Source of the DNA: an uncultured Desulfovibrio sp.
Lineage (GTDB): Bacteria > Desulfobacterota > Desulfovibrionia > Desulfovibrionales > Desulfovibrionaceae
Direction of reading: 5' to 3'
NCBI RefSeq assembly: GCF_944327235.1
Contig: NZ_CALVHE010000018.1
Coordinates: 1 to 39,124, forward strand
Length of the DNA stretch: 39,124 bases
Positions 180 to 16,157 of this stretch are shown here, piece after piece. A program made the position numbers and the translations under genes. The notes below the pieces were generated by a model. The model saw only the letters and a program-made list of their open reading frames with translations. It did no database searches and was not told the origin of the DNA. Within the stretch, counting starts at the first letter, position 1, and every line of letters begins with the position of its first letter.

Positions 180-845
180 TTACCGTCGGAAGCGCTTCAT
201 TTCCTCATGCACGAGCTCAAGGCCGATCATGATGTTCTTTTCCAGCGTGGACCGTAACAGTGCGGCATCCTTGCTGCGCAGGGCGGCAATGATGGCGGCG
301 TGCTGCTGGTTGAACAACTCCTTGTGCTCCACGGAGTAGGACCGCAAGGTCAGGAAGGCTTGCACGAAGTCCATGAGATGTTCCACCACGGCGACAAGAT
401 GCGGCATCCGCGACAGCTCATAGAGCCGTCGATGGAACTCCCTGTCCATATGGAAGAAATAGATCTCCTCTCCGGCGGACTCCATCTCGCGCGCTGTCTC
501 CTCCAGCGCATCCAGCTCGGCGGGGGTGGCCTGCAGCATGGCTTCCTCGGCAAGCGCCAGCTCCATACTGCAACGCTGCTCATAGATGAGCTTCATCTCG
601 CGAAACCCCGGCGGGAGCATGACGATAGCGCCCTTGTGGGGGATATTCTGCACAAGGCCGGACTTGTCCAGCAACAGGAGAGCGTCACGGATAGGCCCGC
701 GGCCGACTCCAAGACGCTGTTCAAGGTCCGTAAGGATGAGGCGCGTACCGGGCAGGGCGTCCCCCCTCATGATCATGTCGCGGATCATCTCATAGGCGGC
801 GTGCGATTTTGTCGAACTATTTCGCTGTTTTTTTGTAGAATTCAT
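180..845 (-). CDS. GntR-family transcriptional regulator, FCD subfamily
   Basis: This is a DNA-binding regulator, probably controlling the divergent permease/dehydrogenase cluster. The N-terminal winged helix-turn-helix spans about residues 15-80 and carries the typical GVGRGPIRDAL recognition-helix segment. The all-helical FCD effector domain covers about 85-215, with Asp134, His138 and His182 at the usual metal/ligand positions. A further position that is often His appears to be Asn204. The reading frame extends 7 codons further to an ATG at 866, but a good promoter (TTGACC, 17 bp, TATATA at 852-880) covers that ATG, and its predicted transcription start falls on the A of the ATG at 845. 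I therefore chose 845 and a leaderless mRNA; no Shine-Dalgarno precedes either start. The effector is unknown and may be the cluster's substrate or an intermediate. Confidence 0.9.
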   Translation of the reverse strand: MNSTKKQRNSSTKSHAAYEMIRDMIMRGDALPGTRLILTDLEQRLGVGRGPIRDALLLLDKSGLVQNIPHKGAIVMLPPGFREMKLIYEQRCSMELALAEEAMLQATPAELDALEETAREMESAGEEIYFFHMDREFHRRLYELSRMPHLVAVVEHLMDFVQAFLTLRSYSVEHKELFNQQHAAIIAALRSKDAALLRSTLEKNIMIGLELVHEEMKRFRR

Positions 846-851
846 GCGATA

Positions 852-880
852 TATATACGCTGACATATAAGGCGGGTCAA
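852..880 (-). promoter_or_regulatory. Promoter of the GntR regulator
   Basis: On the minus strand TTGACC (875-880), a 17-bp spacer and TATATA (852-857) form a good sigma-70 match. The expected transcription start is about 845, the first base of the chosen start codon. A box-like sequence (ATTCATGCGATA, 840-851) overlaps the start site and resembles the boxes before the permease, so autoregulation is plausible. Confidence 0.6.
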
Positions 881-950: not shown

Positions 951-974
951 TTTCATAAAATATTTCATAAAATA
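951..974 (+). promoter_or_regulatory. Tandem 12-bp operator-like boxes before the permease promoter
   Basis: TTTCATAAAATA occurs twice head to tail (951-962 and 963-974), ending exactly where the -35 hexamer of the permease promoter begins. Related sequences occur before the dehydrogenase gene (2564-2587) and at the GntR start (840-851). Position next to -35 suits an activator site or a repressor overlapping the polymerase footprint. That the GntR protein binds here is inference. Confidence 0.55.
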
Positions 975-1003
975 TTGACTTCTTCGTGCCGACCTTCTAG
1001 AGT
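975..1003 (+). promoter_or_regulatory. Promoter of the permease-led cluster
   Basis: TTGACT (975-980) and TAGAGT (998-1003) are separated by 17 bp. The predicted leader before the permease start codon is about 70 nt. Confidence 0.55.
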
Positions 1004-1079: not shown

Positions 1080-2558
1080 ATGCAGCATGACCATCAGCAC
1101 ACACACCACCGCCACGAGCTCGGCAAGACCGTCCTGCCCATGCAGGCATGGGCGCTGGCGGTAGGCGCCATCATCGGCTGGGGATGCTTCATCCTGCCGG
1201 GAACGCGCTTCCTGCCCGACTCCGGCCCGCTGGCCAGTCTCATCGGTCTTGCCGTCGGCGGTCTTGCCCTGTGCATCGTCGCTCTGTGCTACGGCATCAT
1301 GATCAAGGGCTACCCTGTGGCAGGCGGCGCTTTTGCCTACGCATTCGTGGGCTTGGGGCGACTGGCGGCCGTGGTGTGCGGCTGGGGGCTGGCGTTGAGC
1401 TACATCTGCGTCATCTCCCTCAATGCGACGGCCATCCTCCTGCTGACGCGCTTCCTCCTGCCCGGAGCCTTTGAAACGGGACACCTCTACAGCATTGCGG
1501 GCTGGAACGTGTACGCCGGAGAGATCGTCCTCATCTCGTTGGTCATCCTCTTCTTCGCCTTCATGAACTATCGCGGCAGCAACTGCGCCAATACCGTCCA
1601 GCTGTGGCTCTCGCTCTCGCTGGCCGCCGGGGTGGTGGCGCTGGCTGTCGGCTCCGGCATAGACGAAGGGGCGGGCTCCACCAATCTGATGCCGCTCTAC
1701 AATGATCAGAACGGCCTGTTCGTGAGCATCATCTCCGTCGTGGCGCTTGCCCCCTTCCTCTATCAGGGCTTCGACACCATCCCGCAGACGGCCGAGGAGT
1801 TCAATTTCAGCCACGACAAGTCCACCATGCTCATGGTCATCTCCATCGTCTGCGGCTGCGTGCTCTACTCGCTCGTACTGGCCGCCGTGGCGATCATCCG
1901 GCCGTATCCCGAGCTCCTTGCCGCCGATCATCCCTGGCTGACGGGCGCCGTGGCAGGTATGGCCTTCGGCAAGTGGGGCGGCATCATCCTGGCGGTGCCG
2001 GTGCTGGCGGGCATCTTCTGCGGCATGAACGGGTATTTCATCGCCTCTACCCGCATCCTCTTCAGCATGGGGCGCAGCAAGTTCATCCCGGCTTGGTTCG
2101 AACGCATCCACCCGGAACACAAGACCCCGGTCAACGCCATCCTCTTCGTGCTGCTCTTCTCCCTGCTGGCGCCCTGGTTCGGCCGTCCCGTGCTGGTCTG
2201 GCTGACGGACACCTGTGCCCTGAGCGCCGCCCTGAGCTACTTCTTCACCTGTTACACCGCCTACAGGTACAGCGTCCGGCACGCTGACCGCGTCACCCTG
2301 CCGTTCGCCCGGCAGATAGCCTTCCTCGGCTGCGGGATCTCGGTCGTGAGCTTCTTTCTGCTGGCCGTACCCGGTTCCCCCGCCGCCATCAGCGCCGAAT
2401 CCTGGGGACTGCTGCTGGTCTGGTGCGTGCTGGGCGTCCTCTTCTACCGCCGCCGCGCAGACGAGCTCAAGGCCATCTCCACGGAGCAGCTCCAGTACAT
2501 GCTGCTTGGCGATACGGCCCGCCCGTTGCTTTTCACTGAAGGGAAAATTTTTCGCTAG
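1080..2558 (+). CDS. APC-family amino-acid permease
   Basis: A 492-residue inner-membrane transporter of the amino acid-polyamine-organocation family with about 12 hydrophobic helices. The first helix carries the substrate-loop signature GAIIGWGCFILPG, and the GFDTIPQTAEE segment in the middle is typical of the family. The start at 1080 follows an AGGGGAAAG ribosome binding site; the frame opens further upstream but without such a site. The N-terminal cytoplasmic tail is unusually His-rich, with six His in the first twelve residues. As first gene of the cluster it probably imports the compound degraded by the following enzymes, and an amino-acid-type carrier suggests a zwitterionic substrate. 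Substrate identity cannot be read from the sequence. Confidence 0.9.
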   Translation: MQHDHQHTHHRHELGKTVLPMQAWALAVGAIIGWGCFILPGTRFLPDSGPLASLIGLAVGGLALCIVALCYGIMIKGYPVAGGAFAYAFVGLGRLAAVVCGWGLALSYICVISLNATAILLLTRFLLPGAFETGHLYSIAGWNVYAGEIVLISLVILFFAFMNYRGSNCANTVQLWLSLSLAAGVVALAVGSGIDEGAGSTNLMPLYNDQNGLFVSIISVVALAPFLYQGFDTIPQTAEEFNFSHDKSTMLMVISIVCGCVLYSLVLAAVAIIRPYPELLAADHPWLTGAVAGMAFGKWGGIILAVPVLAGIFCGMNGYFIASTRILFSMGRSKFIPAWFERIHPEHKTPVNAILFVLLFSLLAPWFGRPVLVWLTDTCALSAALSYFFTCYTAYRYSVRHADRVTLPFARQIAFLGCGISVVSFFLLAVPGSPAAISAESWGLLLVWCVLGVLFYRRRADELKAISTEQLQYMLLGDTARPLLFTEGKIFR

Positions 2559-2566
2559 AAAAATTT
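2545..2566 (+). repeat. Hairpin across the permease stop codon
   Basis: A perfect 9-bp inverted repeat (AAATTTTTC, loop GCTA, GAAAAATTT) spans the TAG stop. It is A/T-rich and overlaps the downstream palindrome ATTTCATGAAAT, so two alternative structures compete. It could modulate read-through or message stability between the permease and the enzyme genes. Confidence 0.35.
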
Positions 2567-2587
2567 CATGAAATAATTCATAAATCT
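2563..2587 (+). promoter_or_regulatory. Operator-like boxes before the HpsN-like gene
   Basis: The perfect 12-bp palindrome ATTTCATGAAAT (2563-2574) contains TTTCATGAAATA (2564-2575), followed at the same 12-bp period by ATTCATAAATCT (2576-2587). Both resemble the tandem boxes at 951-974. They end three bases before the AAGGAG ribosome binding site (2590-2595). No clear promoter hexamers were found in this 44-bp gap. Confidence 0.45.
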
Positions 2588-2602: not shown

Positions 2603-3913
2603 ATGCGTTACATCAAGCAAGCCACCAAGTCCGCTGAAGACAACAGCAAGCAGGCCCGCATCGCCGTCGAGCAGATGCTGAAAGAGATCCGCGCCGGACG
2701 CGAAGATGCCGTCCGCCAGCTGGCCAAGAAGTTCGATAACTGGGATCAGGAATTCATCCTGAGCGACGCCAAGCGTCAGGAACTCATCGGCATGGTCCCC
2801 GAAAGCGTCAAGCGCGATCTGGAATTCGCCCACAAGCAGGTCTCCGGCTTTGCCAAGGCCCAGCGCGAGAGCATCCATGAATTCGAGACCGAAGTGACGC
2901 CCGGCGTGGTGCTGGGACAGCGCATCATCCCCATGGATGTGGCCGGATGCTATGTGCCCGGCGGCCGCTTTGCCCATGCCTGCTCGGCCCTGATGAGCGT
3001 GGCCACGGCCAAGGCGGCGGGCGTGCCCTTCATCGTGGCCGCCACCCCGCCGCGCGGCACGCACATCGACCCCGCCACCTGCTACGCCATGCATATCGCC
3101 GGTGCGGACATCATCCTTGAGATGGGCGGCGTACAGGCCATCGCCACCATGGCCTACGGTCTGTTCACCGGCAAGCCCGCCAATATCCTGGTCGGTCCCG
3201 GCAACGCCTACGTGGCCGAAGCCAAGGCCCTGCTGAGCGGTTCCGGCCTCTGCGGCATCGACGTGTTCGCCGGTCCCACGGAATCCGGCATCATCGCTGA
3301 CGAAACGGCCGATCCCATGACGGTGGCCATCGACCTTGTCTCTCAGGCGGAGCATGGCTACAATTCGCCGGTCTGGCTCTTCACCACCAGCGAGACGCTG
3401 GCCGAACAGGTGCTTGAACTCATGCCCAAGCTCTGCGCCGACATGCCCAACCCCGACGTGCCGCTGAGCGCCTGGCGCGATTACGGCGAGATCGTCCTGT
3501 GCGACGACCGCGAAGAGATGGCTTCCGTCAGCGACCATTATGCTCCCGAACACATCCAGGTGATCGCGAAAGATCTTGACTGGTGGCGTACCCGCCTGCG
3601 CTGTTTCGGTTCGCTCTTCCTGGGCGAGGGCAGCACCGTGCCGCACGGCGACAAGTGCTCCGGCACCAACCACATCCTGCCCACCAAGAAGGCCGGTTAC
3701 TACAGCGGCGGCCTCAATGTGCACAAGTTCCTCAAGATCTGCACCTATCAGCACATCGATCCGGACAAGAACGACATCATCGGCGGCGCGGCCTCCCGTC
3801 TTTCCCGCGTTGAAGGCATGGAAGGCCATGCGCGCGCCTGCGACTGGCGTCTGCGGAAGTTCTATCCCGGCCGGGAGTGGGACTTCCCCGTGTACGAACA
3901 TCCCAAGTACTAA
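2603..3913 (+). CDS. Histidinol dehydrogenase-family enzyme, HpsN-like (sulfopropanediol/amino-alcohol dehydrogenase candidate)
   Basis: A 436-residue zinc- and NAD-dependent dehydrogenase that in this family oxidises a primary alcohol to the acid in two steps. Family zinc ligands are in place: Gln248 and His251 (SQAEHG), Asp350 and His409 (EGHARA). The catalytic Glu316-His317 pair sits in APEHIQV. Where biosynthetic HisD normally has GDY followed by the GTNHVLPT motif, this protein has GDKCSGTNHILPT, with Lys351 in place of Tyr. That is the pattern I associate with HpsN, which turns 2,3-dihydroxypropane-1-sulfonate into sulfolactate. No other histidine-biosynthesis gene is nearby. The start follows AAGGAG by 7 bp. 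Because true HisD acts on an amino alcohol, oxidation of cysteinolate to cysteate is an equally reasonable reaction. Family assignment is firm; substrate is inferred. Confidence 0.85.
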   Translation: MRYIKQATKSAEDNSKQARIAVEQMLKEIRAGREDAVRQLAKKFDNWDQEFILSDAKRQELIGMVPESVKRDLEFAHKQVSGFAKAQRESIHEFETEVTPGVVLGQRIIPMDVAGCYVPGGRFAHACSALMSVATAKAAGVPFIVAATPPRGTHIDPATCYAMHIAGADIILEMGGVQAIATMAYGLFTGKPANILVGPGNAYVAEAKALLSGSGLCGIDVFAGPTESGIIADETADPMTVAIDLVSQAEHGYNSPVWLFTTSETLAEQVLELMPKLCADMPNPDVPLSAWRDYGEIVLCDDREEMASVSDHYAPEHIQVIAKDLDWWRTRLRCFGSLFLGEGSTVPHGDKCSGTNHILPTKKAGYYSGGLNVHKFLKICTYQHIDPDKNDIIGGAASRLSRVEGMEGHARACDWRLRKFYPGREWDFPVYEHPKY

Positions 3914-3978: not shown

Positions 3979-5181
3979 ATGAAGACATTCACCAAGGATT
4001 TCACCCTGCAGGAACCCATTCCTCAGGAAGGCATCGAGCTGGCGCTCGGCGTCATGCAGACCGGCCGCCTGCACCGTTACAACACCATGCCCGGCGAAAA
4101 GGGCTATGCCGCGGAACTGGAAGAGGCCTTTGCCGCCTATATGGGCTCCCGCTACTGTCTTGCCTGCGCGTCCTGCGGCAGCGCGCTCTATATCGCGCTC
4201 AAGAGTCTGGGCGTCCAGGCCGGGGATACCGTCCTCTGCAACGCCTACACCCTGGCACCCGTGCCCGGCGCCATTGAAAATGCGGGCGGCAAGATCGAAC
4301 TCGTCGAGATCACCGATGATTACACCATCAACATCGAGGATCTTGACGCCAAGGCCGCCAAGACCGGCGCGCGTTTCTTCCTGCTCTCGCACATGCGCGG
4401 CCATATGGCCAACATGGACAAGGTCATGGAAGTGGTGCGCAAGCACGACCTCATCCTGCTGGAAGACTGCGCCCACACCATGGGCGGCAGCTGGGACGGC
4501 AAAAAGAGCGGCACCTTCGGGCACGCGGCCTGCTACAGCACCCAGACCTACAAGCACATGAACTCCGGCGAGGGCGGCCTGCTCATCACCAATGACGATC
4601 TGGTCATGGCCCGCGCCATCATGTACTCCGGCTCCTATATGCTCTATACCGCGCACACGGCCCGCCCGGATGTCTCGGTCTTCGAGAAGGTCAAGAAGGT
4701 CACGCCGAACTTCAGTTCGCGCATGGACAATCTGCGCGCCGCGCTGCTGCTGCCGCAGCTGAAGATCCTCGACGAGCAGTGCCGCCGCTGGAACGTGCTG
4801 CATGACCACATGGCCGCCCGGCTCAAGGCCATCCCCGGCGTCGTCTGCCCGCAGCGCGACCCCCGCGAAAGCTATGTGGGCAGCTCCATCCAGTGGAACC
4901 TGCCCAAGGCCGGCTACGCCGATATCGAGACCTTCATCGCCAAGTGCGCCGAACGCGGCGTCTCCGTCAAATGGTTCGGCAACAAGGAGCCCAACGGTTT
5001 CACCAGCGCCTATGACAGCTGGCAGTATTTCCCCTATCTGGCCACGCTCGACCTGCCCACCACGCGGCGCGTGCTGGCCACCATGTGCGACATGCGCCTG
5101 CCCCTGACCTTCACCGTCGAGGACTGCGACGTCATTGCCGACATCATTGCCGAGGTCGTTACGGAAATGGGCCTGCGCTAG
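3979..5181 (+). CDS. DegT/DnrJ/EryC1/StrS-family PLP aminotransferase
   Basis: A 400-residue fold-type I aminotransferase of the family better known for amino-sugar synthesis. The Schiff-base lysine is Lys192 in TQTYKHMNSGEGG, and the cofactor-binding Asp is in LLEDCAHTMGG around residue 163. The start was placed at 3979, six bases after AAGGAG, rather than at an in-frame ATG at 3940 without a ribosome binding site. It lies 65 bp after the dehydrogenase and before a PLP-dependent lyase, so here it may move an amino group to or from a C3 keto- or aldehyde-sulfonate rather than a sugar. No sugar-nucleotide genes adjoin it. Confidence 0.88.
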   Translation: MKTFTKDFTLQEPIPQEGIELALGVMQTGRLHRYNTMPGEKGYAAELEEAFAAYMGSRYCLACASCGSALYIALKSLGVQAGDTVLCNAYTLAPVPGAIENAGGKIELVEITDDYTINIEDLDAKAAKTGARFFLLSHMRGHMANMDKVMEVVRKHDLILLEDCAHTMGGSWDGKKSGTFGHAACYSTQTYKHMNSGEGGLLITNDDLVMARAIMYSGSYMLYTAHTARPDVSVFEKVKKVTPNFSSRMDNLRAALLLPQLKILDEQCRRWNVLHDHMAARLKAIPGVVCPQRDPRESYVGSSIQWNLPKAGYADIETFIAKCAERGVSVKWFGNKEPNGFTSAYDSWQYFPYLATLDLPTTRRVLATMCDMRLPLTFTVEDCDVIADIIAEVVTEMGLR

Positions 5182-5246: not shown

Positions 5247-6248
5247 ATGAATCTCGCCAAGTTCCCCCGTCGCGGCTATGTCACCGAACCCACGCCCCTC
5301 GAATACCTGCCCAACTTCAGCAAGGCGCTGGGCGGCAAGGTCAACATCTACATCAAGCGTGACGACCTCCTGCCCGGTACCGCGGGCGGCAACAAGACCC
5401 GCAAGCTGGACTTCGTCATGGCCGACGCCCTGGCGCAGGGCGCCGACACCATCATCACCTGCGGCGCCGTCCAGTCCAACCACTGCCGCCTGACCCTTTC
5501 CTGGGCCGTCAAGGAAGGGCTGGACTGCCACCTCGTCCTCGAAGAGCGCGTGACGGACAGCTACAAGCCTGAAGCCTCCGGCAACAACTTCCTCTTCCAG
5601 CTGCTGGGCGTGAAGAGCATCACCGTCGTGCCCGGCGGCAGCAACATGATGGAAGAGATGGGCAAGGTGGCCGACAAGCTCAAGGCGCAGGGCAAAAAGC
5701 CCTATATCGTGCCCGGCGGCGCTTCCAACAAGATCGGCGCTCTCGGCTATGTGAGCTGCGCCGAGGAGACGCTGCGTCAGCTCTTCGAGAAAGGCATCAA
5801 CATCGACCACATGGTGGTGCCCAGCGGCAGCGCCGGGACCCATGCGGGCATCATCGCGGGCATGTTCGGCAACAATGCGGGCATCCCGGTGACCGGCATC
5901 GGCGTCAACCGTCCCAAGCCCGTGCAGGAAGCGGCCGTGCACAAGCTGGCGCAGGAAACGCTGGACTACATCGGGGCCGGCGTGAGCCTGCCCACCGAAA
6001 AGGTGGTGGCCTTCGACGATTATGTCGGCCCCGGCTACTCCCTGCCCACCGACAGCATGGTGGAAGCCGTGAAGCTGCTGGCCCAGACCGAAGGCATCCT
6101 GCTTGATCCGGTGTACTCCGGCAAGGCCATGGCCGGTCTCATCGACCTGGTGCGCAAGGGCCACTTCGCTGACGGCAGCAATGTGCTCTTCCTGCACACC
6201 GGCGGCTCCCCGGCCCTGTATGCCTATCTTGACACCTTCCGCAAATAA
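5247..6248 (+). CDS. D-cysteine desulfhydrase / cysteate sulfo-lyase family enzyme (DcyD/CuyA-like)
   Basis: A 333-residue fold-type II PLP enzyme of the ACC deaminase/D-cysteine desulfhydrase family. Lys50 in AGGNKTRKLDF is the PLP lysine, the QSNHCR segment (76-81) is the family's substrate loop, and LHTGGSPALYAY near the C terminus is the phosphate-side motif. DcyD releases sulfide, pyruvate and ammonia from D-cysteine; its relative CuyA releases sulfite, pyruvate and ammonia from cysteate. The NKTRK form, as I remember the families, resembles CuyA more than DcyD (NKLRK). Next to an HpsN-like dehydrogenase the cysteate reaction is attractive, as sulfite would feed the sulfite reductase of a sulfate reducer. 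Chirality and substrate are not determinable here. Confidence 0.85.
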   Translation: MNLAKFPRRGYVTEPTPLEYLPNFSKALGGKVNIYIKRDDLLPGTAGGNKTRKLDFVMADALAQGADTIITCGAVQSNHCRLTLSWAVKEGLDCHLVLEERVTDSYKPEASGNNFLFQLLGVKSITVVPGGSNMMEEMGKVADKLKAQGKKPYIVPGGASNKIGALGYVSCAEETLRQLFEKGINIDHMVVPSGSAGTHAGIIAGMFGNNAGIPVTGIGVNRPKPVQEAAVHKLAQETLDYIGAGVSLPTEKVVAFDDYVGPGYSLPTDSMVEAVKLLAQTEGILLDPVYSGKAMAGLIDLVRKGHFADGSNVLFLHTGGSPALYAYLDTFRK

Positions 6249-6306
6249 GCCTTTCAACCTGCCGGGACGGCGTGCTGCCGTCCCGGCAGCCTCAGGAACG
6301 ACCCAC

Positions 6307-7086
6307 ATGTCTACCCAGCAGCTGCCTCCTTCCATCGGCGTCCTCGGCGGTCTCGGCCCCTATGCGGGGCTCGATCTGGTACACAAGATCTTTGACTGTT
6401 GCCCTGCCCACCGGGATCAGGACCATCTCCCCGTCATGCTCTACTCCTTTCCCAACGAGATCCCTCCCCGGGTGGAGTTCCTGCTGGGCAGCAGCCCGAC
6501 CAATCCCGGCCATGCCATGGGGGACATCATGGTACGGCTGGCGCAGGCTGGAGCCACCGTCATCGGTATGCCCTGCAATACGGCGCACAGCGCGCCCATG
6601 CTGGATGTGGCCCTTGAGCGCCTGAAGCGCTCCGGTTTCACGGGCCGTTTCATCCACATGATCACGGCCACCGCGGAATATCTGCGCAAGACCTTCCCCC
6701 AGGCCCGGCGTATCGGCGTCCTCTGCACGCAGGGCGCCTACGCGTCGCAGGTATTCACGCAGCATTTCCAGCCGGCGGGACTTGAGGTCATCTATCCCGA
6801 CGAAGCCGGACGCGACGCCCTGCAACATGCCATCAGCGATCCGGACTTCGGCATCAAGGCCTTCTCCCAGCCTGTCACCGCGCAGGCGCGCGCAGCCATC
6901 GAAGCACAGGCCGAAAGCCTGCGCTCCCGGCAGGCGGACGTCATCCTGCTCGGCTGCACCGAGCTGCCGCTGGCGCTGGAAGGCAAGGATTTCCGGGGGA
7001 TCCCCCTCGTGGACCCCACGCGCATCCTGGCGCGCTGCCTCGTCGAGGCGTTCGCACCCCATGTCGTATGCTCCGACGGCAAGTAG
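6307..7086 (+). CDS. Aspartate/glutamate racemase-family protein
   Basis: A 259-residue cofactor-independent amino-acid racemase. The two catalytic cysteines are Cys90 in GMPCNTAHSA and Cys217 in LLGCTELPLAL, and the N terminus has the family glycine stretch GVLGGLGPYAG. The start at 6307 follows AGGAACG; the same frame runs back into the previous gene but that part is not coding. Lying 58 bp after the PLP lyase, it could interconvert the D and L forms of the lyase substrate, for example aspartate-like cysteate. A role on aspartate or glutamate for cell-wall precursors is less likely from the context but not excluded. Confidence 0.88.
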   Translation: MSTQQLPPSIGVLGGLGPYAGLDLVHKIFDCCPAHRDQDHLPVMLYSFPNEIPPRVEFLLGSSPTNPGHAMGDIMVRLAQAGATVIGMPCNTAHSAPMLDVALERLKRSGFTGRFIHMITATAEYLRKTFPQARRIGVLCTQGAYASQVFTQHFQPAGLEVIYPDEAGRDALQHAISDPDFGIKAFSQPVTAQARAAIEAQAESLRSRQADVILLGCTELPLALEGKDFRGIPLVDPTRILARCLVEAFAPHVVCSDGK

Positions 7087-7135: not shown

Positions 7136-7284
7136 AAAAATGAACGCACGACCCGCCGGCAAAACGTTTTGGCACAAACGTACGCCGGCAAACAGCAAGG
7201 ACGCGACCCGAAAGAGCTCCAGGCATAAGCAAACTCCTGAAAGGCATCCTGTCGGTCATGGTAGCCTCCAGTCGGCAGAGCCCG

Positions 7285-7327
7285 CCCTCCTTTTCGCCGC
7301 ACACCGAAAAGGAGGGCTTTGTTTTCC
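7285..7327 (+). terminator. Terminator of the permease-racemase cluster
   Basis: A perfect 12-bp stem (CCCTCCTTTTCG with CGAAAAGGAGGG, 8-nt loop) is followed by CTTTGTTTTCCTT. It ends the cluster about 200 bp after the racemase and isolates it from the rpoB promoter. Confidence 0.75.
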
Positions 7328-7382
7328 TTCCTCCCTGCACGATCGCAGACCGGAAGCGCGCCGCCCGGCAAAAAGGCTGCGG

Positions 7383-7422: not shown

Positions 7423-7699
7423 CATTGATTCCTATAATGCATTGGGGGATACTCTGGTCACGACGGCAAAACGCACACGCACGGCATAGATTTTTTCAGG
7501 CAGGCAAACGGAACGCCCCGTAAAGGGGGGTGCGCCCGTTTGTCCTTTGTTGCGTCTTTGACCAGAAACCCAAGGGAACTACGCTTCGGACAGCGGCACA
7601 CTGACGTCGCCCGCAGAGCGTGCGTCCGCCCGGCGGCACGGGGCCACCCCACCCGGCGTCAGGAACCGAAGCGCAACCGCTACCCACTTGAGGTACAGC
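7423..7699 (+). other. Long rpoBC leader
   Basis: About 270 nt separate the predicted rpoB promoter from its start codon and hold no supportable gene. A nested inverted repeat is visible: CAAACGG (7505-7511) with CCGTTTG (7536-7542) around a CCCC/GGGG inner stem (7516-7519, 7525-7528), followed by a T-rich stretch. It might act as an attenuator or processing site. The rest of 7328-7699 shows nothing beyond the promoter. Confidence 0.4.
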
Positions 7700-10600
7700 A
7701 TGGGCCAGCTTATCAAACAGTTCGGCAAGATCAAAGTTTCGCTCCCCATCCCGCACCTGCTCAATCTTCAGATAGACTCGTACGAGAAGTTTCTGCAGGA
7801 AGGCGTGGCCGAGGCCGACCGCAAGCCCGATGAAGGGCTGGAAGGCGTGTTCCACACCGTCTTTCCCATCGAAGATTTCAACAAGACCGCCAGTCTGGAG
7901 TTCGTGAGCTACGAAGTTCAGGAGCCCAAGTACGATCAGGCCGAATGCATTTCCAAGGGGCTGACCTACGAAGCGCCCGTGCGCATCAAGGTCCGCCTTG
8001 TGGTCTATGACATGGATGAAGCCTCCGGCAACCGGACCATCCGCGACATCAAGGAGCAGGACATCTATTTCGGCACCCTGCCCCTGATGACCGAAAAGGG
8101 CACCTTCATCATCAACGGCACCGAGCGCGTCATCGTCAATCAGCTCCAGCGCTCGCCCGGCATCATCTTCGAGCACGACGGCGGCAAGACGCATACCAGC
8201 CGCAAGGTGCTCTACTCCTGCCGCGTCATCCCCATGCGCGGCTCCTGGCTCGACTTCGACTTCGACCACAAGGACATCCTCTACGTCCGTATCGACCGCC
8301 GCCGCAAAATGCCCGCCACCATCCTGTTCAAGGCCATGGGCATGACCAAGACGGACATCCTGGACTACTTCTATACCCGCGAGCACTACCAGCTCGCCGA
8401 TCCCGACCGCCTGTTCTGGGAAGTGGAGAAGGACCTCTACCGCAAGGACAATGCCTACGCCGATATCGCCGCTCCGGACGGCACGGTCCTCGTCAAGGCG
8501 GGCAAACTCATCACCAAGCGCGGCTGGCGGCAGATCTGCGAGGCGGGCATCCCCACCATCGAAGTGCGCCCGGACACCCTTGACGGCATGTTCCTTGCCG
8601 AGGACGTGGTGGCCGAAGGCAGCGGCGAAGTACTGGCCGAAGCCGCGGACGAGATCACTCCCGGTCTGCTGGAACGTATGCGGGATGCGGGCATCCGGCG
8701 CATCGCCGTGCTGCACACCAAGGGCACGGACACCTCCTCCTCCATCCGCGACACCCTCATGCAGGACCGCATCGCGGATCAGGAAAAGGCTCAGGAGGAG
8801 ATCTACCGCCGTCTGCGCCCCTCCTCCCCGCCCACCGCGGAGATCGCGGCCAGCTTCTTCGACAATCTTTTCCGCAATCCCGACTACTACGACCTGTCGC
8901 CCGTGGGCCGCTACAAGCTCAACCAGCGCCTTGCCCTCACCGCGCAGGCGGTGGCCGGGGCCGAGCTGTCCGCCTACGACAAGAAGTTCGTCAACGAGGA
9001 CGGCAAGACCCTTGAGGAAAAATTCCACGGTCTGCTGGAGAACCGCACGCTCAACGATCACGACATCCTGACCGCCATCAAGGTGCTCGTGCAGTTGAAG
9101 GACAGCCACGGCCCCGCCGACGACATCGACCATCTGGGCAACCGCCGCGTGCGTCTGGTGGGCGAACTGGTGGAGAACCAGTACCGCATCGGCCTCGTGC
9201 GCATGGAACGCGCCATCAAGGAGCGCATGAGCCTGCAGGAGATCTCCACGCTCATGCCGCATGACCTCATCAATCCCAAGCCGGTCGCGGCCGTGCTCAA
9301 GGAATTCTTCGGCACGTCCCAGCTCTCGCAGTTCATGGACCAGACCAACTCCCTGTCCGAAGTGACGCACAAGCGGCGTCTCTCCGCTCTGGGTCCCGGC
9401 GGTCTGACCCGTGAGCGCGCGGGCTTTGAAGTGCGCGACGTGCACACCTCCCACTACGGACGCATCTGCCCCATCGAGACGCCCGAAGGCCCGAACATCG
9501 GTCTCATCGTCTCGCTGACCACCTTTGCCCAGGTCAACGACTTCGGCTTCATCGAAACGCCCTACCGCGTCATTCGCGACGGTTACGTCACGGATGAGAT
9601 CGTGCATCTCGACGCCTCGCGCGAATCCGATGCCGTGGTGGCTCAGGCCAATGTGCGCATCGACGCCGACGGCCGTCTGGCCGACGAATTCGTCACCGTG
9701 CGCGTCAAGGGCGAAGTGGAGATGCGCTCCCGTGACGAAGTGACCCTCATGGACATCTCGCCCAGCCAGATGGTGTCCATCTCCGCCGCGCTCATCCCCT
9801 TCCTGGAGCATGACGACGCCAACCGCGCGCTCATGGGCTCCAACATGCAGCGCCAGGCCGTGCCGCTGCTGCGTAGTGAAAAGCCGCTGGTGGGTACCGG
9901 CATGGAAGTGGACGTGGCGCGCGACTCCGGCGCCTGCATCGTGGCCCCGGCCGACGGCGTGGTCAAATACGCCGACGCCGACCGCATCGTGGTGGCCTAT
10001 GAAGGCGGGCTGTTCAAGCAGTCCGGCGGCGTCAAGGCCTACGATCTGCTCAAGTACCACAAGTCCAACCAGAACTCCTGCTTCGGCCAGAAGCCGACCT
10101 GCTATCCCGGCCAGATCGTGAAAAAGGGCCAGATCCTGGCCGACGGTCCGGGCATCGACGAAGGCACGCTGGCGCTGGGCAAAAACCTCGTGGTGGCCTT
10201 CATGCCCTGGTGCGGCTACAACTACGAAGACTCCATCCTCATTTCCGAACGTGTGGTCAAGGAAGACATCTTCACTTCCGTCCATATCGAGGACTTCGAG
10301 GTGGTGGCCCGCGACACCAAGCTGGGACCGGAAGAGATCACCCGCGATATCCCCAACGTCAGCGAGGACATGCTCCGCAACCTCGACGAGAGCGGCATCA
10401 TCCGCATCGGCGCGGCCGTGAAGCCTGACGACATCCTGGTGGGCAAGATCACCCCCAAGGGCGAGACCCAGCTCACCCCTGAAGAAAAGCTGCTGCGGGC
10501 CATCTTCGGTGAAAAGGCCCGCGACGTGAAGAATACCTCCCTCAAGGTGCCGCCGGGAGTGGAAGGTACGGTCATCGACGTCAAGGTCTTCAACCGTCGC

Positions 10601-11923
10601 TCCGGCGAAAAGGATGAGCGTACCCTGGCCATCGAGGCCCACGAGACCGCCGTGCTCGACCAGAAGGAAGCCGATCACCTGCGCGCGCTCTCCGACCGGA
10701 CGCGCACGCTCATCGCGCCCCATGTCGTGGGCAAGCAGGTGGCCACCACCGTGCCCGGCAAGAAGAAGGGCGAGGTGCTGGTGGAGGCCGGCGCGGCGCT
10801 GAGCGAGGAGCAGCTCGAGCAGATCCCCGTCAGGAAGCTGGCCGGGCTCTTCAAGAGCAAGGAAGTCAACGACAACGTGGCCGAACTGCTGCGCGCCTAT
10901 GACCTGGAGGTCGAGTACCTCAAGGGCATCTACGACTCCAAGCGCGAAAAGGTCACCGAAGGCGACGATCTGCCCCCCGGCGTCATCAAGATGGTCAAGG
11001 TCTACATCGCCATCAAGCGTAAGCTCTCGGTGGGCGACAAGATGGCCGGCCGTCACGGGAACAAGGGTGTCGTCTCCTGCATCCTGCCGGAAGAGGACAT
11101 GCCCTTCTTTGCCGACGGGCGTCCCGTGGACATCGTGCTCAACCCGCTGGGCGTGCCCTCGCGAATGAACATCGGCCAGATCATGGAGACACACCTCGGC
11201 TGGGGCGCCAAGGAGCTCGGCCGTCAGCTCGCTGAGCTGGTGGACTCCGGCGCCGCTGTGGCCACCGTCCGCGCCGACGTGAAGGACGTGTTCAACTCCG
11301 AGGCCATCAACGAGCTGGTGGACAGCATGGACGACGAAGAGTTCATCGCCTCGGTGAAGAAGCTGCGCAACGGCATCGTGACCCGTACGCCGGTCTTTGA
11401 CGGCGCCACGGAAGACGAGATCTGGGGCTGGATGGTCAAATCCGGTATGCCGCATGACGGCAAGACCGTGCTCTATGACGGCCGTACGGGCGTGCCCTTC
11501 AAGAACCGCGTGACCACCGGCGTCATGTATATCCTGAAGCTGCACCACCTGGTCGACGAAAAGATCCACGCCCGCTCCACCGGCCCCTACAGCCTCGTGA
11601 CCCAGCAGCCTCTGGGCGGTAAGGCCCAGTTCGGCGGTCAGCGTCTCGGGGAAATGGAAGTCTGGGCTCTGGAAGCTTACGGCGCGGCCTATCTGCTGCA
11701 GGAATTCCTCACGGTCAAGTCCGACGACGTGACGGGCCGTGTGAAGATGTACGAAAAAATCGTCAAGGGCGACAACTTCCTCGAAGCCGGTCTGCCCGAG
11801 TCCTTCAACGTGCTGGTGAAGGAACTCATGAGCCTGGGCCTCGACGTGACCCTGCACGAGGAAGAAGGCAAGAAAAAGCCCAAGCGCGTCGGCTTCATGC
11901 GTGAGCAGGAAGTGGACGAGTAG
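7700..11923 (+). CDS. rpoB: DNA-directed RNA polymerase subunit beta
   Basis: A 1407-residue catalytic subunit of RNA polymerase. The N terminus [21 protein letters not shown], the rifampicin-pocket region ([20 protein letters not shown], about residues 539-558) and the C-terminal [19 protein letters not shown] segment are diagnostic. The residues equivalent to E. coli Asp516, His526 and Ser531 are the usual sensitive-type ones. The start was set at the ATG at 7700 preceded by GAGGT, not the in-frame TTG at 7688. Unlike the usual order, rplL is not upstream; the gene begins a separate rpoB-rpoC unit with its own promoter. Confidence 0.98.
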
Positions 11924-11987
11924 CTGCCGGCCATCCGCCGGACAGAGGCAAGGACTGTAACGAGCTTTTGACAAGCAAGGTAGCTAT

Positions 11988-16157
<4,170 letters not shown>

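Follow-up and report, generated by a model that had tools for sequence, protein, structure and literature searches.

CuyB is reported to interconvert L- and D-cysteate, and D-cysteate is the substrate that the sulfo-lyase CuyA is reported to prefer (PMC11382572); CuyA has also been described as able to work as a D-cysteine desulfhydrase (PMC10507020). Both enzymes belong to a third pathway outlined for 2,3-dihydroxypropane-1-sulfonate (DHPS), which consists of HpsN, a sulfolactate dehydrogenase, an aminotransferase, CuyB and CuyA (PMC11382572). Here we analysed a 39,124-nucleotide stretch of DNA (the window) from an uncultured Desulfovibrio sp. (contig NZ_CALVHE010000018.1 of assembly GCF_944327235.1), in which a gene for a CuyA-family lyase is followed by one for an Asp/Glu-type racemase. 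The original prediction held that such a pair would allow both enantiomers of its substrate, cysteate, to be used. Pairing of CuyA with a racemase is already published, so that this idea, which our data support, is not new in kind; what is new here is a racemase lineage outside CuyB, the surrounding operon with its operator-like sites, and a separate clade of HpsN.

The pair very probably degrades cysteate, and it is probably the cysteate-degrading end of an operon whose upstream enzymes would make cysteate in the cell. The substrates named below are predictions, drawn from protein families, residues, operon structure, operator-like sites and co-occurrence, all of which were read from sequence.

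A CuyA lyase followed by a racemase outside the CuyB clade

The lyase, a protein of 333 residues with an ATG start, carries its pyridoxal 5′-phosphate (PLP) lysine, K50, in the motif GGNKTRK. It matches the NCBIfam model NF052482 (‘D-cysteate sulfo-lyase CuyA’) over its full length and passes the curated cut-off (scores in Table 1). By contrast, it stays below the cut-offs of the three D-cysteine desulfhydrase equivalogs, NF003029 (292.1 bits, cut-off 610), NF003030 (308.4, cut-off 429) and NF003032 (289, cut-off 469), and its designation as a D-cysteine desulfhydrase was set aside on these grounds. The original assignment to the D-cysteine desulfhydrase/CuyA family is thereby narrowed to CuyA. 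No sequence difference from CuyA was seen, and activity on D-cysteate is predicted.

The racemase has 259 residues from the ATG at 6307 (the mechanical list of open reading frames begins its frame at an upstream TTG, 6103) and has both of the catalytic cysteines that had been noted originally, C90 in PCNTAH and C217 in GCTE. These residues, together with R55 and K184, align with those of the aspartate racemase from P. horikoshii, and the closest solved structures are aspartate racemases. Among the curated models, the top score is to NF052483 (‘cysteate racemase CuyB’); the protein falls just under the cut-off of that model and passes the broad amino-acid racemase model TIGR00035 (asp_race; 124.3 bits, cut-off 93.1). 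Six other members of its clade, which we term Rac2, score 175–188 bits on NF052483, compared with 263–277 bits for four canonical CuyB proteins, and in the seven Rac2-clade members scored the CuyB model outscores asp_race by ~53–71 bits. A tree built from 58 racemases sets the Rac2 clade, whose 18 rows (support 96/97) all come from the window’s own family, the Desulfovibrionaceae, apart from CuyB, whose clade has 28 rows (95/96). Thus the window racemase shares with CuyB its best-scoring family, both cysteines and a cuyA partner, but lies below the cut-off, in a clade of its own, and is longer than six canonical CuyB proteins (235–242 residues). The cut-off and the tree rule it out as an ordinary CuyB; we regard it as a putative cysteate racemase outside CuyB in the strict sense.

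A first tree had placed the Rac2 clade as sister to a Salmonella putative aspartate racemase (95/90). This placement was dropped because that tree held the very long row L181; for the final tree, L181 and two redundant rows were taken out and further racemases were added. As the deeper fork is open in the final tree, no kinship of the Rac2 clade to another clade is claimed. L181 itself is a third Asp/Glu-type racemase of the window’s genome (G000:C9:14378-15013), which scores 103.6 bits against the CuyB model and has a very long branch.

Co-occurrence of the pair within the family and a second cuyA locus

As had been stated originally, the racemase gene directly follows the lyase gene, 58 nucleotides away and on the same (+) strand. 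The arrangement recurs in the family beyond what chance would give. Of the 45 cuyA places listed from the family’s genomes we examined 42. A racemase lies less than 1 kb away, always on the same strand, at 12 of them (ten of the Rac2 type, which we set at an identity of at least 46% to the window racemase, and two canonical), and no racemase lies within 1 kb at the other 30. The Rac2 type has 16 places, spread over 13 of the 149 genomes of the family; cuyA is present in 40 of the 149, and all 13 Rac2-type genomes are among these (hypergeometric 7e-9, a value that ignores the kinship of the genomes). Six of the 16 Rac2-type places have no cuyA within 1 kb. In the relatives L043, L047 and L054 a dicarboxylate symporter-like gene, recognised by eye, stands just before the racemase gene.

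The proposal that an Asp/Glu-type racemase acts on cysteate is supported by its nearest curated model, CuyB, and by the published CuyB/CuyA chemistry (PMC11382572). Rather than use of both enantiomers as such, the arrangement more likely reflects a racemase that would supply a D-preferring lyase from L-cysteate.

The same genome holds further cuyA sequence. Contig C75 (L035, 10423–11438) ends inside a cuyA gene after 261 nucleotides that are 97.7% identical to the window copy, and contig C51 (L036, 19033–19146) ends with 112 nucleotides of a cuyA 3′ end at 96.4% identity. We infer that these are the two ends of one gene. On C75 it adjoins a canonical cuyB (276.3 bits on NF052483, over the cut-off), whose gene is preceded by one for a Sodium:dicarboxylate symporter (PF00375), and a half-site scan of C75 and C51 found no operator-like sites. 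This CuyB-CuyA-symporter locus suggests a natural route for cysteate itself, separate from the window operon. The DNA similarity between the two cuyA copies ends at the gene ends. G040, of the same genus, has a cuyB-cuyA pair with a lyase only 77% identical to that of the window, and the 96–98% identity within one genome therefore points to gene conversion or recent copying.

Operon structure and the HpsN-like dehydrogenase

The lyase and racemase genes are, as read from their arrangement, the last of one predicted operon with genes for a permease, an HpsN-like dehydrogenase and a DegT aminotransferase (Table 1). The gaps inside the operon measure 44–65 nucleotides. The order GntR/permease-HpsN-DegT-CuyA-racemase is conserved in L068 and L070, and L069 has the same order with no permease detected; a GntR/FCD regulator gene adjoins the operon in all three. 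A consensus scan gave three promoter-like sites, compared with 1.3 (standard deviation 1.2) in shuffles, so that the promoter alone is weak, and the four terminator-like sites in the region are not above the number in shuffles (4.8). Long open reading frames that resemble rpoB and rpoC, named by eye, come after the hairpin. Two long antisense frames on the minus strand, 7496–11974 opposite the rpoB-like frame and 915–2282 opposite the permease gene, are probably an effect of high G + C content and not genes.

Table 1 Features of the predicted operon and its surroundings in the window
Feature	Position	Strand	Basis
GntR/FCD-family regulator	180..866	-	PF00392 and PF07729 over cut-off; divergent from operon
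Candidate operator (tandem TTTCATAAAATA half-sites) that extends into promoter-like -35	951..980	.	Exact TTTCATNAAATANTTCAT at 951-968
Promoter-like TTGACT-17-TAGAGT	975..1003	+	Consensus scan
APC-type amino-acid permease	1080..2558	+	PF13520 and PF00324 over cut-off
Second candidate operator copy, upstream of dehydrogenase gene	2564..2581	+	Exact TTTCATNAAATANTTCAT match
HpsN-like dehydrogenase (histidinol-dehydrogenase family)	2603..3913	+	PF00815; best PDB match 8v35
DegT/DnrJ/EryC1-type PLP aminotransferase (K192)	3979..5181	+	PF01041; alignment A1
CuyA, predicted D-cysteate sulfo-lyase	5247..6248	+	NF052482, 536.7 bits vs cut-off 450
Asp/Glu-type racemase Rac2, putative cysteate racemase outside CuyB clade	6307..7086	+	NF052483, TIGR00035, tree, C90/C217
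Terminator-like hairpin 3′ of racemase gene	7284..7317	+	13-pair stem and T tail

The best PDB match of the dehydrogenase is the sulfopropanediol 3-dehydrogenase CpHpsN, which acts on R-DHPS. The two share His126 and the other catalytic and metal residues: the window enzyme conserves His126, Gln248, His251, Glu318, His319, Asp352, Lys353, His359 and His411, with Thr in place of Ser226. The HpsN motif has been published as G-R-Y-A/S-H, with His126 binding the sulfonate; the window enzyme has GRFAH, in which this His is kept and Tyr is replaced by Phe. In a tree of 72 HpsN rows, however, the window dehydrogenase belongs to a clade of 42 rows (100/99) and CpHpsN to a separate clade of 17 rows (98/97). 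Loop residues 348–354 of HpsN are described as moving upon substrate binding. Of 59 sequences at least 57% identical to the window dehydrogenase (a set in which some genes are repeated and some do not stand beside DegT), 57 have His or Gln at position 350 of this loop and the other two have Tyr; in the DHPS-type set, all 19 members have Phe or Tyr there. The window enzyme also differs from CpHpsN in its link to DegT and CuyA. At locus L272 of G039, a 2.17 Mb single-contig genome, TRAP-like (tripartite ATP-independent periplasmic transporter) genes, recognised by eye, accompany an HpsN gene of the window clade.

Grimontia and Enterovibrio each hold both kinds of HpsN (family scans were made in Grimontia only). 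The neighbours of the DHPS-type gene encode a short-chain dehydrogenase, a zinc dehydrogenase and SuyA- and SuyB-like proteins, to which the Grimontia locus adds an Ldh_2 dehydrogenase; the other HpsN gene lies with those for CuyA, DegT, TRAP and CuyB. Since a DHPS-like operon and an HpsN-DegT-CuyA-CuyB operon occur in one genome, the latter may serve another substrate.

Neighbourhoods of the DegT aminotransferase

The best PDB matches of the DegT protein are inosose and keto-sugar aminotransferases. Relatives were sought with alignment A1 (11 members) against genome contigs, and neighbours within up to 9 kb were recorded for the best 80 of at least 578 stretches; many contigs end early, so that the counts are lower bounds. 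An HpsN homologue lies near DegT in at least 38 of the 80 loci (four of them, L143, L146, L166 and L170, in the DHPS-type clade) and a CuyA homologue in at least 25 (one, L108, at only 35% identity), with CuyB in at least 17, RidA in at least five and a Rac2-type racemase in at least one. HpsN and CuyA are both present in at least 19 loci, in at least 15 of them together with a racemase. Tight operons recur, among them DctP-DctQ-DctM-HpsN-DegT-RidA-CuyA-CuyB (L103) and CuyA-HpsN-DegT-DctP-DctQ-DctM-CuyB (L113, L117, L123).

HpsN of the window type (at least 58% identity), CuyA and a racemase come together in at least 12 loci. In eight of these (L105, L106, L109, L110, L111, L113, L119 and L123) the contiguous run around DegT contains solely HpsN, CuyA, racemase, TRAP, RidA and GntR genes, and hence no sulfolactate dehydrogenase; the remaining four contain extra genes, not all of which were identified. 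A family tally covered 61 of 83 listed DegT-neighbour proteins, a mixed set of unrelated proteins (A2): among the rows listed no family has more than four of the 61, and FMN_dh and 2-Hacid_dh_C have two members each. A follow-up scan of ten neighbours located both FMN_dh proteins, one of the two 2-hydroxyacid members and an Ldh_2 protein.

A DegT relative in G039 (L073, 6857–7861) matches only from about residue 64 on, with no HpsN detected in 14 kb, and is possibly a decayed copy. In the open-licence PMC literature, a scope that makes this negative weak, we found no paper that assigns a DegT enzyme to sulfonate breakdown.

Operator-like sites and a candidate regulon

The candidate operator site at 2564 is the same in L068 and similar in L070, and sites like TTTCATNAAATANTTCAT with at most three mismatches lie near the regulator or 5′ of HpsN in L068, L069, L070, L074, L076, L101, L103 and L106; clustered exact half-sites were found in 16 of 92 sequences scanned. 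The degenerate pattern is exact at four places of the window’s genome: 951 and 2564 in the window, C1:54332 and C30:10401. A reversed-pattern control gave three matches with at most one mismatch in the same genome. The pattern was built from the window’s own sites, so that the shuffle expectation overstates its weight, which rests instead on the identity of the genes behind the four exact places. The gene that begins 33 nucleotides after the C1 site is of the RidA type (PF01042, 114.9 bits, over the cut-off; TIGR00004, 105.1 bits, just under 106.25), and the one ~75 nucleotides after the C30 site encodes a TRAP receptor (TIGR00787, over the cut-off) that is 48–50% identical to three receptors of HpsN-DegT operons. 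In locus coordinates, the array of TTTYATRAAATA half-sites that precedes these two genes is at 7333–7350 of L288 and 7402–7419 of L289. Because RidA and TRAP receptor homologues are operon members in relatives, all four exact places fit one regulon, which likely comprises the operon, hpsN, the RidA gene and the TRAP receptor gene. A RidA protein is in keeping with a pathway in which 2-aminoacrylate is set free, the outcome expected of CuyA.

A proposed route through cysteate

We propose that the pair forms the last module of a sulfonate operon under GntR control, in a Desulfovibrio that reduces sulfite; dsrA was found in the window’s genome. Cysteinolate and 2-oxo-3-hydroxypropanesulfonate have both been reported from diatoms and coccolithophores (PMC11131964). 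Uptake would proceed via the permease or the TRAP receptor. DegT would convert 2-oxo-3-hydroxypropanesulfonate to cysteinolate, the direction of this step being presumed, and the HpsN-like enzyme would carry out a four-electron oxidation of cysteinolate to cysteate, with imported cysteinolate entering at this point. Cysteate would thus be made inside the cell by the operon’s own dehydrogenase and aminotransferase. The racemase would interconvert L- and D-cysteate, CuyA would eliminate sulfite from D-cysteate, and the resulting 2-aminoacrylate would go to pyruvate and ammonia, aided by the seemingly co-regulated RidA-type protein. The sulfite would pass to dissimilatory sulfite reductase.

In histidine synthesis, HisC and HisD turn a ketone into an amino alcohol (aminotransferase) and the amino alcohol into an amino acid (histidinol-dehydrogenase family). 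The proposed DegT and HpsN-like steps would parallel these in chemistry, although the aminotransferase here is of the DegT and not the HisC type, the group carried would be a sulfonate and not an imidazole, the route would be catabolic, and the substrates are predicted ones. A HisC/HisD-like synthesis of cysteate from cysteinolate or its ketone, followed by desulfonation by racemase and CuyA, is our tentative first choice and has clearly less than an even chance. Similarly tentative is the wider suggestion that a cysteinolate pathway is widespread, from marine bacteria to anaerobic Desulfovibrio, with the racemase of Desulfovibrionaceae drawn from a second, non-CuyB lineage.

Two other routes were considered for the window’s genome and rejected. 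No SuyB-type PF04295 gene was found in it with a model that does detect the Grimontia SuyB-like protein, which speaks against a SuyAB route for sulfolactate. An Ldh_2-type sulfolactate dehydrogenase was rejected likewise, as no PF02615 gene was found there; other dehydrogenase types were not searched.

Alternative readings

Several observations weigh against the interpretation given above, at the pair as well as upstream of it. At the pair, the racemase reaches 186.5 bits on NF052483, 3.5 bits short of the cut-off of 190, and the fork that joins the Rac2 and CuyB clades is unsupported in the 58-racemase tree. Four of the 13 Rac2 genomes (G101, G039, G125 and G042) have no Rac2 copy adjoining cuyA in the assembly, and T. 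muris is reported to have cuyA and yet to show no growth on cysteate under the conditions tested (PMC10507020). It is improbable, all the same, that the racemase is an aspartate/glutamate racemase with another use that stands beside cuyA by chance. Its pass on asp_race, the aspartate racemases that are its nearest solved structures and the six Rac2-type places away from cuyA would agree with such a role; the presence of cuyA in every one of the 13 Rac2-type genomes, the ten same-strand neighbours among 42 cuyA places and the lead of the CuyB model in all seven members scored argue otherwise. We give still less credence, and very little, to a D-cysteine desulfhydrase whose pairing with the racemase would handle D- and L-cysteine. 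The lyase is of the same superfamily, its best PDB match (7ysk) is named D-cysteine desulfhydrase, and CuyA can show this activity, as noted above, but its scores lie under all three equivalog cut-offs and well above that of CuyA, and its operon partner HpsN has the sulfonate-binding His.

Upstream, cuyA and DegT stand together with no HpsN nearby in L121, L124, L131, L133 and L147, and in Hoeflea DegT relatives (55–56% identity; L134, L149 and L153, near 9001–12154) directly precede an equal-length gene, which at L134, the only one scored, encodes a sulfoacetaldehyde acetyltransferase (xsc; TIGR03457, 929.5 bits, cut-off 676.4). A lactate-dehydrogenase-like gene dependent on flavin mononucleotide (FMN) lies directly 3′ of DegT in L148 (1325–2461) and L150 (1834–2970); the L148 product, the one FMN protein scored, resembles L-lactate dehydrogenase in NCBIfam. 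A 2-hydroxyacid dehydrogenase gene takes this position in L159 (8033–8980; GhrA-like, below the cut-off), and L166 (10343–12879) carries consecutive genes for DegT, a DHPS-type HpsN and an Ldh_2 protein, the last of which scores 163 bits on the L-sulfolactate dehydrogenase model (cut-off 500). In L272 (2927–7632) the HpsN of the window clade adjoins a SuyA-like gene, seen by eye and with no family match. L148, L150, L159 and L166 suggest sulfopyruvate as the DegT substrate, at least there. Because of these hydroxyacid dehydrogenases beside DegT, we lowered the cysteinolate route from a little below even to its present tentative standing, and a DHPS route was raised to the same standing from an unlikely one. 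In the DHPS route HpsN would oxidise R-DHPS and so yield R-sulfolactate, from which a sulfolactate dehydrogenase whose gene lies elsewhere would form sulfopyruvate; DegT would turn this into cysteate, and racemase and CuyA would finish. We consider the two about equally likely, each tentatively, and keep cysteinolate as our first choice. The window operon shares with the third DHPS pathway its HpsN-type, aminotransferase, racemase and CuyA steps; it differs in having no sulfolactate dehydrogenase, in its DegT-type aminotransferase and in a seemingly co-regulated RidA. The aminotransferase of that pathway is described as unknown in R. pomeroyi (PMC11382572). The DHPS route would also suit the retention of His126, Glu318, His319, Asp352 and Lys353 in HpsN, the four loci with hydroxyacid-type dehydrogenase genes, and the occurrence of DegT next to cuyA alone and next to xsc. 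Against it stand the eight window-type operons whose contiguous runs contain no sulfolactate dehydrogenase, the lack of an Ldh_2-type enzyme in the window’s genome (where this was the one type searched), the two distinct operons of Grimontia and Enterovibrio, and the keto sugars and inososes on which solved DegT relatives act.

Significance

The chemistry of the lyase and racemase is known, and the pair alone adds little to it. The operon, by contrast, offers testable candidates for the breakdown of cysteinolate or for the cysteate-forming aminotransferase of the DHPS route. Cysteinolate is described as an algal solute that can exceed dimethylsulfoniopropionate in some phytoplankton (PMC8703288). 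The second racemase clade, if it does act on cysteate, would be a further lineage for the same reaction, and in a sulfite-reducing organism each turn of the pathway would give sulfite, and hence sulfide.

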